This document shows, in pieces, positions 6,188 to 59,347 of a stretch of DNA of 64,000 bases (positions within the stretch are counted from its first letter, which is position 1; each line of letters begins with the position of its first letter). The notes under the pieces were generated by a model. That model saw only the letters and a program-made list of their open reading frames with translations. It was not told where the DNA came from and searched no databases. The position numbers were made by a program, and so were the translations under genes. Source of the stretch: Alphaproteobacteria bacterium (GTDB taxonomy: Bacteria > Pseudomonadota > Alphaproteobacteria > Caulobacterales > Hyphomonadaceae); assembly GCA_018830285.1 (NCBI GenBank), contig JAHJSB010000060.1:62001-126000 (forward strand), given 5' to 3'.

Positions 6188-6573
6188 ATGACCAGACGGC
6201 CTGTAAGCCGGGTTCTGTTCCCCGTGCCCTCTCGGGACATCGGTTCGGCAACCATTCCTCTGCGACAGGCCTCACAGCCTGCCTCTCGCGACACACCCGG
6301 GGCGCGGGCTGAAGACATCCCATATGCGCCCCCTACTTGGTCTTGCTCCAGGCGGGGTTTACCTTGCCGGGACTGTTACCAGCCCCGCGGTGGGCTCTTA
6401 CCCCACCCTTTCACCCTTACCTCCTGCCGAAGCGGGAGGCGGTCTGCTCTCTGTGGCACTTTCCCTCGGCTCGCGCCGGGCGGACATTATCCGCCGCCTT
6501 GTCTCCCTGGAGCCCGGACTTTCCTCCAATGGCAGGTTACCCCACCACCAGCGATTGCCCGGCCGTCTGGTCA
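6188..6573 (-). ncRNA. rnpB: RNase P RNA, bacterial type A
   Basis: The catalytic RNA of ribonuclease P, which matures tRNA 5' ends. On the minus strand the 5' part carries the invariant GGAAAGTCCGGGCTCC block (plus-strand complement around 6510-6526) and the 3' part the invariant ACAGAACCCGGCTTA (complement 6203-6217). The two termini form a perfect 13-bp P1 helix (6188-6200 with 6561-6573). The length of about 386 nt is normal. The processed ends may lie a base or two inside the helix. All reading frames across this region are spurious. Confidence 0.96.
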
Positions 6574-10145: not shown

Positions 10146-10170
10146 GGGAGATTCCTTTCCCTCTTCATAT

Positions 10171-10186
10171 ATTAGAGATTGCTAAT
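10171..10186. promoter_or_regulatory. Candidate BigR/SqrR operator
   Basis: Inverted repeat ATTAG-N6-CTAAT in an AT-rich stretch of the 67-bp region between the divergent MBL and BigR-like genes. A second palindrome, TAATATATTA (10198-10207), sits just before the regulator's ATG and may be its -10 region. BigR family members are known to bind AT-rich palindromes of this kind; binding here is inferred. Confidence 0.6.
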
Positions 10187-10212
10187 TTAACAAGACATAA
10201 TATATTAACCTC

Positions 10213-10671
10213 ATGATTGCTTCACTTCTCGACCCCGACCAGTTCAAGAACAAGGCTTCCGAAGCGGCGGGCCTGCTGCGCAGCATGGCCAATCCACACC
10301 GGCTGATGATCCTCTGCCGCCTTGGCGACACGGAAATGTCGGTCGGCGAATTGCGCGAGGGTACCGCCCTGTCGCAATCCTCGCTGTCACAGCATCTTGG
10401 CGTGCTACGTCAGGAAGGCCTCGTGCGCACGCGCCGGCAGGGCCAGTCTATTTTCTATTCGATTGCCGACCCGGCGGCGAACCGCGTGATCACGACGCTG
10501 GCGGCGATCTATTGCCCGGAACTCCTGGCCGAGGCGCAAGAAGCGGCCGGGTCGAAGGATTGTTTTGCGGCATGTCCATTTGTTCTGGATGGCGACACGG
10601 CCAGCGCAGCGCGGGCAGGGCGCAAGTCGCCCAAGCCATGGACACGCCCGACAAAAAGGTCCGGGAAATGA
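10213..10671 (+). CDS. bigR: ArsR-family persulfide-sensing repressor, BigR/SqrR-like
   Basis: A 152-residue winged-helix repressor. Residues 25-85 form the ArsR domain (LRSMANPHRLMILCRL, then SQSSLSQHLGVLRQEGLV as the recognition helix). Cys35 (ILCRL) and Cys101 (IYCPE) are 66 residues apart, exactly as the redox pair of SqrR/BigR that forms an intramolecular polysulfide bridge and releases DNA. The C-terminus beyond residue 110 is extended, with two further cysteines and a basic tail, and overlaps the TSUP gene (ATGA). Expected to repress itself, the exporter and the divergent dioxygenase. Confidence 0.9.
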   Translation: MIASLLDPDQFKNKASEAAGLLRSMANPHRLMILCRLGDTEMSVGELREGTALSQSSLSQHLGVLRQEGLVRTRRQGQSIFYSIADPAANRVITTLAAIYCPELLAEAQEAAGSKDCFAACPFVLDGDTASAARAGRKSPKPWTRPTKRSGK

Positions 10672-56451: not shown

Positions 56452-56871
56452 TCAGCCGACGCGGCGGCCGTCCGCATCAATCAGGAGCGAGCCGTCTTCC
56501 TTGTGCAGCGGCCCCGGTGGCAGCGTGTCCAGCAGGTCTAGAACGGCCTCGCTGGGGCGGCACAGGCGCACGCCCTTGGGCGAACACACGATGGGCCGGT
56601 TGACCAGCACGGGCGACTCAAGCATCGCGCTGAGGATCGTCTCGTCATCGACGCCCGGTTCCAGCAGGCCGAGTTCTGCCGCAGGCGACTTGGTTTCCCG
56701 TAGCGCCTCACGCGGAGTGAGTCCGGCAGCGGCAAACAGGCCGAGCAGCTGGTGCCGCGTCCAGCCCGTCTTCAGGTAGTCAATTACGACAGGCTCAGCG
56801 CCGCTGGCTTCGATGATCGCCAGCACGTTGCGCGACGTCCCACAGTCGGGATTGTGATGGATGACGATCAT
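56452..56871 (-). CDS. arsC: Arsenate reductase ArsC (glutaredoxin-coupled)
   Basis: A 139-residue thioredoxin-fold reductase that converts arsenate to arsenite. Cys10 (HHNPDCGTSRN) is the catalytic thiol, and conserved arginines around LVNRPIVCSPKGVRLCRPSE complete the site, as in the E. coli plasmid type. It is the last gene of the minus-strand ars operon, 3 bp from acr3, and ends next to the convergent SDR. Confidence 0.94.
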   Translation of the reverse strand: MIVIHHNPDCGTSRNVLAIIEASGAEPVVIDYLKTGWTRHQLLGLFAAAGLTPREALRETKSPAAELGLLEPGVDDETILSAMLESPVLVNRPIVCSPKGVRLCRPSEAVLDLLDTLPPGPLHKEDGSLLIDADGRRVG

Positions 56872-56874
56872 GGG

Positions 56875-57897
56875 TCAGGACTCCGGGAAGGCGTTGCGTG
56901 TCCGGTTGGCGAAGGCCACCAGCGACAGCATCACCGGCACTTCCACCAGAACGCCGACAACTGTCGCCAGCGCCGCGCCGGAATTCAGGCCGAACAGGCT
57001 GATCGCGACCGCCACCGCCAGTTCGAAAAAGTTGGACGTGCCGATCATGGCGCAGGGCGCGGCCACATTGTGCGGCACTTTCCAGGCCCATGCCGCGCCA
57101 TAGGCAATCGCGAAAATGGCATAGGACTGGATCAGGATCGGCACAGCGATCAGGGCAATGATCAGGGGCCGGTCAATGATCACCTGTCCCTGGAACCCGA
57201 ACAGGAGGACAACTGTCGCCAGCAATCCCACCACGGAGGCCGGCTTGATTCGGTCCATGAACCCCTTCACCGCCGCCTCGCCGCCGTGTGCCATCAGCAT
57301 CCGGCGCGTCACCATGCCCGCGATCAGCGGAATGACCACGTAAAGCGCAACCGACAGGATCAGCGTCTCCCACGGCACGGCAATGTCGGTTACGCCCAGC
57401 AGGAAGGCGACCAGCGGCGCAAAGGCGAAAACCATGATCGCATCGTTCACGCTCACCTGCGCCAACGTGTAATTCGGGTCGCCCTTGGTCAGTTGCGACC
57501 AGACAAACACCATCGCCGTGCACGGCGCCGCGCCGAGCAGGATCAGCCCGGCAATATAACCCTCGGCATCCGCCGCCGGGATGAAGCCGGCAAACACATG
57601 CTTGAAAAACAGCACGCCCAGCGCCGCCATTGTGAACGGCTTGATCAGCCAGTTGACCACAAGCGTGATGATAAGGCCTTTCGGCTTCTCACCGACGCGG
57701 GCCAGGCTGGAGAAATCCACACCGATCATCATCGGCCAGACCATGGCCCAGATCAGGATCGCGACCGGGAAATTCACATTGGCGTATTCCAGCCCCGCGA
57801 GGGTCTGGAACAGGCCGGGCACGACCAGGCTCAACCCGATGCCGGCCGCGATCGCAGCGGCGACCCAGACCGACAGGTAACGTTCAAAAACGCCCAC
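56875..57897 (-). CDS. acr3: ACR3 family arsenite efflux transporter
   Basis: A 340-residue, 10-span arsenite permease of the bile/arsenite/riboflavin transporter superfamily. [21 protein letters not shown] is the typical N-terminus; [24 protein letters not shown] (about 130-153) holds the conserved transport cysteine. The start is a GTG at 57897 just 4 bp from the arsI stop, so translational coupling is likely. It exports As(III) produced by ArsC. Confidence 0.93.
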
Positions 57898-57901
57898 GCT
57901 G

Positions 57902-58387
57902 CTAGCAGCAGCCGGATGGTGCGGGGGCGGTCGCGGGCGCCGGGCAACAGGCCCGTTCCACCGCCATGCCGGTCGGCGTCGCGGCGAGGCGTCCGTCCGC
58001 TATTTCAGGCCCGCCACCATAGACCGCGCTGTCGCCGGTCGTGTGGAACACTTCCCACGCCACGCCCGACGGGTCACTGACCCAGCTCTTTTCAGACTTC
58101 GCATAGCAGCAGGTGGTTTCGCCTTCTTCCAGCACAGTTGCATCCGCGCGGGTCAGGCGGTCATACACGTCCGCCAGTTCCTCGCCGGTTTCGACCTGGA
58201 TGCCGAGATGCTCCACGCCCGCTGGCGCGCCGCGCTGGCTGATCGCCAGGTTGACGCGCGGATCGTCCAGCATCCACTTGGCATAGTCGGATTTCACCAC
58301 CGTCGGCTCAGCCGAGAATAGGGTCGAATAGAAAGCGACAGACTGCGTCAGGTCGTCAACGGCGATGTGTACATGCAGGCGTTTCAT
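57902..58387 (-). CDS. arsI: ArsI/CadI-type glyoxalase-fold protein, probable C-As lyase
   Basis: A 161-residue vicinal-oxygen-chelate enzyme. Metal ligands fit His5, His60 and Glu112, and the vicinal pair Cys93-Cys94 ([12 protein letters not shown]) is the trivalent-arsenical binding site of ArsI, a Fe(II) dioxygenase that demethylates methylarsenite. Known family members use the same spacing (about His5, His62, Glu115, Cys96-97). The C-terminus carries two more CC pairs ([13 protein letters not shown]), which may buffer As(III). CadI, the other branch, is linked to cadmium; the ars context favours ArsI. Confidence 0.9.
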
Positions 58388-58409
58388 GGGTTTTTCCTAT
58401 GGTTTGATA

Positions 58410-58745
58410 TCAGCAACAGGCCGAGCGGGCCATTTCCAGAACGGGCGCGCAAACGTCTTCCCGGCCCTCACAGCAATCCTCCATCAGGAAGACGATCAGG
58501 CCACTGATGGCGTCGAAATTGGCGGAATAGATGATCGAGCGACCCTGCCGCTGGCCGGTCACCAGCCCCGATTGCGACAGGATGTTCAGCTGGGCCGACA
58601 GCGTATTGGGCGGTACGCTCAGGGCGGCGGCAATGTCGCCGGCCGGCAGGCCGTCGTGCCCGGCCTTCACCAGAAGGCGGAACACGGACAGGCGGTTTTC
58701 CTGGGCCAGGGCGGACAATTGCGAAAGCGCGGCTTTGGTTTCCAT
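58410..58745 (-). CDS. arsR: ArsR family arsenite-responsive repressor
   Basis: A 111-residue winged-helix repressor. METKAALSQLSALAQENRLSVF is the classic N-terminus and PPNTLSAQLNILSQSGLV the recognition helix. As(III) is probably sensed by C-terminal cysteines Cys91, Cys92 and Cys99 (EDCCEGREDVC), an arrangement like the AfArsR type, with a further Cys110-Cys111 pair at the end. Its ATG lies inside a perfect inverted repeat. It leads the arsR-arsI-acr3-arsC operon. Confidence 0.93.
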   Translation of the reverse strand: METKAALSQLSALAQENRLSVFRLLVKAGHDGLPAGDIAAALSVPPNTLSAQLNILSQSGLVTGQRQGRSIIYSANFDAISGLIVFLMEDCCEGREDVCAPVLEMARSACC

Positions 58746-58771
58746 ATTTCCAATATCGTGGAAATATGGAA
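58740..58771 (-). promoter_or_regulatory. ArsR operator overlapping the arsR start codon
   Basis: TTCCATATTTCCA (58740-58752), six bases, TGGAAATATGGAA (58759-58771): a perfect 13-bp inverted repeat. The arsR ATG (complement of 58743-58745) lies within the left arm, so bound repressor would cover the -10 box and the start. Confidence 0.7.
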
Positions 58772-58780
58772 TAGAGTCAA
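58752..58780 (-). promoter_or_regulatory. Predicted ars operon promoter (leaderless)
   Basis: On the minus strand TTGACT (58775-58780), 17-base spacer and GATATT (58752-58757). The -10 box ends 6 bases before the ATG, so transcription would begin at or within one or two bases of the A of the start codon. Confidence 0.55.
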
Positions 58781-58849
58781 CCGCCTTTTTGGCGCCTTGC
58801 CGCGGCGCTCCTTGTTGCACCCGGCCTCGCCACCTGCTTGATGGTGCCC

Positions 58850-59347
58850 ATGCAAACGCTTTTGCCCCTCGCATCTGAAATCGGGATGCTGCTCAAGGCC
58901 CGCCGGGAAACTGTCGCGGTCTCTGAATCCTCGTCCGGGGGGCTGATCTCCGCCGCCCTTCTCTCGGTGCCTGGTGCCTCGGCCTATTATCGCGGCGGCG
59001 GCGTCATCTACACGCCTCAGGCCTTTCGCGGCCTGATGGATCTGGGCCGCGCCGACATGCCCGATGGCATGCGCTCCTCGACCGAGCCCTATGCCTGCCT
59101 GCTGGCGCGCACGATCCGGGGCAAGCTCGATGCCGACTGGGGCCTTTGCGAGACCGGCGCCTCGGGCCCCGGCGGCAACGGCTATGGCGACGCTGCCGGG
59201 CACACATGCGTCGCGCTGGCAGGGCAGGGCGCCGATGGCCCGCAGGAAATCTCTCGTACGCTCGAAACCGGCCTCGCTGACCGGGAAGCCAACATGCGCC
59301 ATTTTGCCGTCGAAGCGCTCAGCCTCCTGCACGAGGCGCTGGTCTAG
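58850..59347 (+). CDS. CinA family protein (nicotinamide-nucleotide amidohydrolase domain)
   Basis: A 165-residue stand-alone CinA C-terminal domain (PncC type), which deamidates NMN in pyridine nucleotide recycling. ETVAVSESSSGGLISAALLSVPGASAYYRGG is characteristic, as are GLCETGASGPGGNGYGD and VALAG. The start is ambiguous between ATGs at 58841 and 58850; 58850 gives the usual family N-terminus. It is divergent from the ars operon. Confidence 0.87.
   Translation: MQTLLPLASEIGMLLKARRETVAVSESSSGGLISAALLSVPGASAYYRGGGVIYTPQAFRGLMDLGRADMPDGMRSSTEPYACLLARTIRGKLDADWGLCETGASGPGGNGYGDAAGHTCVALAGQGADGPQEISRTLETGLADREANMRHFAVEALSLLHEALV

Follow-up and report, generated by a model that had tools for sequence, protein, structure and literature searches.

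How is an arsenic resistance operon regulated if its promoter, its operator and the start codon of its repressor gene are built from shared bases? This question is raised by the arsR gene in the 64,000-nucleotide stretch of Hyphomonadaceae DNA that was analysed here (the window). We consider it likely that promoter, operator and start codon form one fused module from which a leaderless, autorepressed arsR-arsI-acr3-arsC operon is expressed, where ArsR would compete at the -10/+1 region and be released by arsenite. Unsigned numbers below are window positions whereas signed numbers are counted from the A of the arsR ATG (+1). The relevant features are:

58410-58745, minus strand: arsR, 111-residue ArsR/SmtB repressor (NF033788 HTH_metalloreg, 62 bits, cut-off 55)
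57902-58387, minus strand: arsI/cadI-type metalloenzyme gene (NF041414, 141.1 bits, cut-off 116)
56875-57897, minus strand: acr3 arsenite efflux transporter gene (TIGR00832, 415.8 bits, cut-off 282.8)
56452-56871, minus strand: arsC glutaredoxin-type arsenate reductase gene (TIGR00014, 110.3 bits, cut-off 106.05)
58775-58780, minus strand: -35 element TTGACT, part of the only sigma-70-like site in 58300-59300
58752-58757, minus strand: -10 element GATATT, 17-nt spacer from the -35 element, at the dyad axis
58759-58771, no strand assigned: upstream arm of the putative ArsR operator, reading TTCCATATTTCCA on the minus strand, perfect inverted repeat
58740-58752, no strand assigned: downstream arm of the putative ArsR operator, reading TGGAAATATGGAA on the minus strand, includes the start codon and codon 2
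58743-58745, minus strand: arsR start codon ATG, inside the low-coordinate arm, its A being the predicted transcription start

All four ars genes lie on the minus strand, and arsR is found together with efflux and reductase genes, which identifies the cluster as an ars operon. The winged-helix domain of ArsR scored above the curated cut-offs for PF12840 (47.6 vs. 27) and PF01022 (22.4 vs. 22), and the nearest solved structure by sequence was the ArsR of 6j05 (E 2.1e-17). Cysteines are present at positions 91, 92, 99, 110 and 111, with Cys91-Cys92 aligning to the CC of 6j05 ArsR. An AGGA motif is located 7 nt before the ATG of arsI, and no such motif is seen upstream of acr3, which starts with GTG. 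The upstream neighbor of arsR is a divergent cinA-like gene, making read-through into arsR from a codirectional neighbor unlikely. Elsewhere in the window, at about 10150-10600 on the plus strand, lies a second, distant ArsR-family gene (ATG at ca. 10213) that shares 32% identity with the present ArsR. The sequence ahead of this gene is AT-rich and contains a TTAG-N6-CTAA dyad. Searching the window with Rfam at gathering scores returned nothing but RNase P RNA (class A, 6188-6570, minus strand, 311.9 bits).

The inverted repeat spans 58740-58771 and consists of two 13-nt arms (58740-58752 and 58759-58771) that are 100% complementary and separated by a 6-nt spacer. A perfect 13-bp repeat with the arsR ATG in one arm had originally been predicted and is borne out by these coordinates. 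Among 18 inverted-repeat pairs listed for the 64-kb window (length of 11 or more, distance no greater than 40), it was the only fully complementary one with non-overlapping arms. Judging from base composition, the expected number of perfect pairs of this length (spacer 3-40) is ca. 0.06 per window and ca. 5e-5 for the local 100 bp. Even when up to 3 mismatches are allowed, the 3.56-Mb genome contains the 24-bp dyad core a single time. The dyad extends from -26 to +6, covering the -10 element and the first two arsR codons on the minus strand, and its axis falls between -11 and -10, within the -10 element.

Relatives were taken from the best 80 of 146 loci and from 75 of 105 genomes of the family with an ArsR match (E of at most 1e-20), and 60 listed ArsR matches without a locus were added to the comparison set. 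The resulting 170 sources, with some genomes present in both collections, were reduced to 118 distinct start regions, the window's included; L033 was dropped from one start-region comparison. Pseudomonas bharatica CSV86 accounted for 23 of the best 80 loci (L058, L060-L076, L078, L079, L081-L083), each with one ArsR-family gene that is 40% identical to the query, which points to a gene carried by a multicopy mobile element. The main set comprised 58 distinct start regions with at least 57% ArsR identity, again including that of the window. Counts are made over start regions that share ancestry and are given without correction for it.

The dyad core (TTC at -18 to -16 and GAA at -5 to -3) was found in register around the start codon in 54 of the 58 main-set regions, compared with 11/29 at 50-57% identity, 1/18 at 45-50% and 1/13 below 45%. 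Of the 8 arm pairs from -14/-7 to -21/+1, 7 or more were kept in 36 of the 58. The exact register is absent from L098, L102, L115 and L116, the first three of which showed an imperfect dyad still containing the ATG in a scan of 14 chosen rows with no control. On a tree of 105 proteins, which is based on few columns, has many unresolved forks and leaves out 13 distinct rows below 45% identity, presence of the core in register required 6 changes (4 forced by well-supported branches) compared with a shuffled mean of 31.8. The available flank contained arsI, acr3 or arsC in 55 of 60 flanked loci (not deduplicated) and cinA in 2 of the 60, placing the dyad and its arsR group in variable surroundings across genera. 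The closest named relatives among the matches listed belong to Hyphomonas; this genus name is based on the start region of Hyphomonas sp. BRH_c22 (L014) being identical to that of L085, which is listed as belonging to the same genus as the window's genome. Comparison with relatives thus indicates that the layout recurs and is not accidental, and the dyad at 58740-58771 is very probably the ArsR operator that it had been predicted to be.

Within 58300-59300, TTGACT-N17-GATATT is the sole promoter-like site (shuffles: mean 0.1), with a modest score of 9/12 in the window sequence. The -10 hexamer and the arsR ATG are six bases apart, so that the usual sigma-70 spacing places +1 on the A of the start codon. 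This is in agreement with the original prediction of a start at or next to the ATG, and the position of the -35 element is kept in relatives. In the 54 dyad-bearing regions, counting the window's own and resolving ties towards -35, the best -35 hexamer starts at -36 (10 regions), -35 (26), -34 (17) or -41 (1), corresponding to -35/-10 spacers of 18, 17, 16 and 23. Matches to 5 or 6 of the 6 bases are found in 42 of these regions and to 4 or more in 49, whereas the same scan 60 bp upstream yielded 7 and 27. In the main set, TTG begins at -37 to -33 in 57/58 regions and is part of TTGAC or TTGAT in 46/58. Because the -35 element lies outside the dyad, its conservation is promoter evidence for which the operator cannot account. 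The -10 hexamer is weak, with 4/6 matches in 31 and fewer in 23 of the 54 regions; A-11 and T-7 are both present in 41 of the 58, A-11 being absent from 9 of the 54, and T-1/A+1, a usual initiating pair, is found in 52/54. All of these positions fall inside the dyad and their conservation could be the operator's alone. A-11 and T-7 were rejected as independent proof of the -10 element since they pair within the dyad, leaving only the -35 element outside.

As a point against the leaderless reading, leaderless spacing is rare in the sampled genome. Among 604 candidate ATGs (185 ORFs), TTGAC combined with NANNNT at leaderless spacing was found for 1, while TTGAC started at -35 for 3 and at -37 to -33 for 5; arsR itself is absent from these matches, apparently through the ORF-overlap filter. 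In favor of this reading, 198 of 200 shuffles fold better than the first 50 nt of a leaderless arsR mRNA would. The absence of an operon leader, as proposed originally, is in line with promoter placement in relatives, by which an arsR mRNA that is leaderless or nearly so is well supported.

In the window, the arsR frame is open upstream to -150, and another ATG lies in this open frame 129 nt upstream of the arsR ATG. This in-frame start at 58874 was rejected based on relatives. Of the 54 dyad-bearing regions, 43 have their nearest in-frame stop no further upstream than -33 (23 of them at -6), excluding translation from beyond that stop in those 43. Gene callers may misplace the starts of such genes, as the additional 129 nt of open frame illustrate. 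The start codon is ATG in 57 of the 58 main-set regions. GTG is found in one Henriciella lineage (L113, the same region as L024), and would be a poor start for leaderless translation, counting against the leaderless reading. No Shine-Dalgarno-like 4-mer (GGAG, GAGG, AGGA or AAGG at -18 to -5) was found in the 58 regions and likewise none in the 18 at 45-50% identity, a group that nearly lacks the dyad core, so that this absence says little by itself; a Shine-Dalgarno site is reported to be missing from 75.4% of Caulobacter genes (PMC4117421). At codon 2, GAA is used in 46 regions and GAG in 1, compared with 136 GAA and 147 GAG for Glu over codons 3-100 (Fisher 2e-12, a value that ignores kinship among sequences). 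This bias may fit an operator constraint on the arsR coding sequence. However, positions +10 to +12, outside the dyad, are also mostly A in the start regions, and codon-2 GAA was downgraded as proof of operator constraint with general A-richness after the start as the alternative.

Of 378 cells at the inner arm pairs (-14 to -20 with -7 to -1), 323 are complementary, more than in any of 2000 shuffles (mean 308.8, maximum 322), three of the seven pairs being fixed by selection because the 54 regions were chosen for TTC/GAA. Two inner pairs, -15/-6 and -19/-2, are kept in just 31/54 and 33/54. Outer-arm covariation (-24 to -26 with +4 to +6) was not found in the 54 regions (98/162 vs. a shuffled mean of 101.5), in a test that is weak since the right side hardly varies. 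Some relatives carry other arm letters at the same place, with GGATAT or TGACAT directly before the ATG. Of the 111 ArsR residues, the one most strongly associated with operator base -3 is residue 46 (0.352), which presumably lies close to where the recognition helix begins; residue 85 follows at a small distance (0.310). The association is based on 73 regions in register, 32 of 105 having been dropped for register and L036 and L037 looking like chance passes among those kept. Gln46 occurs with T at -3 in 4/4 cases from two separate tree parts (L102/L115 and L144/L038), the mate base at -18 being unchanged in L115, and His46 occurs with C at -3 in 2/3, the exception being L034. Although numbers are small, this association ties the present ArsR to the present dyad, and half-site letters together with residue 46 represent a possible specificity code. 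Altered half-sites (GATAT or GACAT before the ATG) were observed in L102, L115, L144, L038, L033 and L156, and the same six relatives have Gln or His where the window's ArsR has Pro. A further-reaching reading can be advanced tentatively and with somewhat more doubt than conviction. Here, operator, -10 element, transcription start and start codon would form one indivisible 32-bp unit kept rigid by selection across Hyphomonadaceae, Maricaulis and Caulobacteraceae, with specificity co-evolving with the recognition helix and the site dictating the first codons (ATG GAA). The A-richness at +10 to +12 weakens this reading.

For the window's operon, RNA polymerase on TTGACT-N17-GATATT would initiate at the A of the arsR ATG or within ca. 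3 nt of it. As long as arsenite is absent, the 32-bp dyad, whose centre falls in the -10 element, would be occupied by an ArsR dimer that keeps the polymerase off the -10/+1 DNA, and arsenite at the Cys91/Cys92/Cys99 region would, judging from the family, free ArsR from the dyad. ArsR would be translated from a 5'-terminal AUG without Shine-Dalgarno sequence, the next gene, arsI, having its own AGGA upstream. The operator may also constrain the first arsR codons. Steric competition for the -10/+1 DNA is the simplest mechanism given a dyad axis inside the -10 element, and it makes the originally proposed block of promoter clearance by bound ArsR less likely. In Pseudomonas putida, ArsR1 and ArsR2 footprints over the -10 box (-39 to +14 and -36 to +23) are read as excluding polymerase (PMC7994332). 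Occlusion of the start codon by bound ArsR, also part of the original prediction, would add nothing to translation control, because a protein bound to DNA cannot hide the start codon in the mRNA. Rather, if there is no leader, an ArsR position centred on the -10 element necessarily covers the start codon.

Other explanations place the transcription start differently. The operator could be real with the main start further upstream, at an unrecognised promoter, and the dyad, as an RNA hairpin, would then sequester the AUG and exert partly translational control. A transcript beginning at -40 would form a hairpin of 13 bp with the AUG inside (-30.4 kcal/mol, z -3.41), and the promoter scan covers sigma-70-like sites, other promoter types being outside its reach. 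However, the region around arsR offers no further sigma-70-like site, the divergent cinA-like gene disfavors read-through, the -35 element is held at -36 to -34 in 53/54 regions, and the arms are imperfect in many relatives, as seen from the arm-pair counts above. We thus regard an upstream start as quite improbable, and hairpin-based translational control was not adopted and is kept as a rival alone. A very short leader, with a start 2-6 nt before the ATG, would make the mRNA nearly but not strictly leaderless and leave the mechanism otherwise unchanged. Sigma-70 transcription starts vary by a few nucleotides, and the Thermus TtSmtB start is described as lying 3 nt ahead of its TTG codon (PMC5658604). 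By eye, the dyad core of L116 and L123 sits ca. 6 nt further upstream; an automated scan returned a best dyad of -26 to -5 for L123 and one still across the ATG for L116. Such a leader appears unlikely given the fixed distance from the -10 element to the ATG in the 54 regions and their T-1/A+1 pair, though both bases are also dyad positions.

Finally, the repeat could be the site of another regulator or a structural relic, with ArsR acting elsewhere. Assignment of the dyad to ArsR is made at the level of sequence, which leaves some room for this idea. On the other hand, the dyad accompanies this arsR group in different genera and in varying gene neighborhoods, is unique in the genome, and its half-site tends to change together with ArsR residue 46, making a different role very improbable.

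The proposed layout has partial precedents. The nreAXY nickel operon of Mesorhizobium likewise has an alphaproteobacterial metal-responsive autorepressor as its first gene, a transcription start placed on the A of the AUG by 5'-RACE (using a reporter fusion in Agrobacterium fabrum) and a dyad operator within the promoter, and is described as uniformly leaderless without Shine-Dalgarno sequence; its repressor is, however, of the CsoR/RcnR type, and the operator at -30 to -12, between -35 and -10, excludes the start codon (PMC12724321). Similarly, acuR-acuI-dddL of Rhodobacter sphaeroides is reported as a leaderless autorepressed operon with a 5'-RACE start at the AUG, an operator overlapping the promoter and Shine-Dalgarno sites at downstream genes, but AcuR is an acrylate-sensing TetR-family protein whose operator overlaps the -10 element from upstream and apparently ends before the ATG; lambda cI and Tn1721 tetR are also named leaderless there (PMC3017554). 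With acuR and nreA, arsR shares a spacing that puts +1 on the start codon and, as a weakly informative feature, the lack of a Shine-Dalgarno sequence before the first gene. The Mycobacterium tuberculosis ArsR-family autorepressor Rv2034 gave DNase I footprints of -30 to +3 and -26 to +8, which we take as numbered from the start codon and hence as covering it, the protected strand ending in GTG; it differs in arm sequence (CCGTAAGT, spacer 4) and is seemingly not presented as part of an arsenic operon, and the word "leaderless" has 0 occurrences in the main text (PMC3338718). P. putida ArsR1 and ArsR2 are alike in binding over the -10 box and predicted start and in being released by arsenite, whereas a figure legend marks ribosome binding sites before the arsR start (PMC7994332).

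Leaderless mRNAs number 375 in Caulobacter (PMC4117421) and 171 in Sinorhizobium meliloti (PMC3616915) as reported, but no published start of a homologue from Caulobacter or Sinorhizobium was found in them, "arsR" having 0 occurrences in both main texts. A TetR-family site 40-70 nt upstream (PMC9953421) and Brucella ArsR6, for which the available text gives no positions (PMC8509827), are of no help for this layout, and no report of such a layout in Hyphomonadaceae was found among the matches listed in open-access literature. Leaderless autorepressor operons (acuR, nreA) and an ArsR-family footprint reaching the start codon (Rv2034), as far as these sources describe them, are known already; particular to the present case is a start codon inside the conserved dyad.

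In conclusion, this locus extends the short list of autorepressed operons with a probably leaderless mRNA by one for arsenic resistance. Since start codon, promoter and operator share bases, it is a small natural system in which the influence of binding sites on coding sequence can be tested, and also a candidate for a compact As(III) switch in alphaproteobacterial biosensors.
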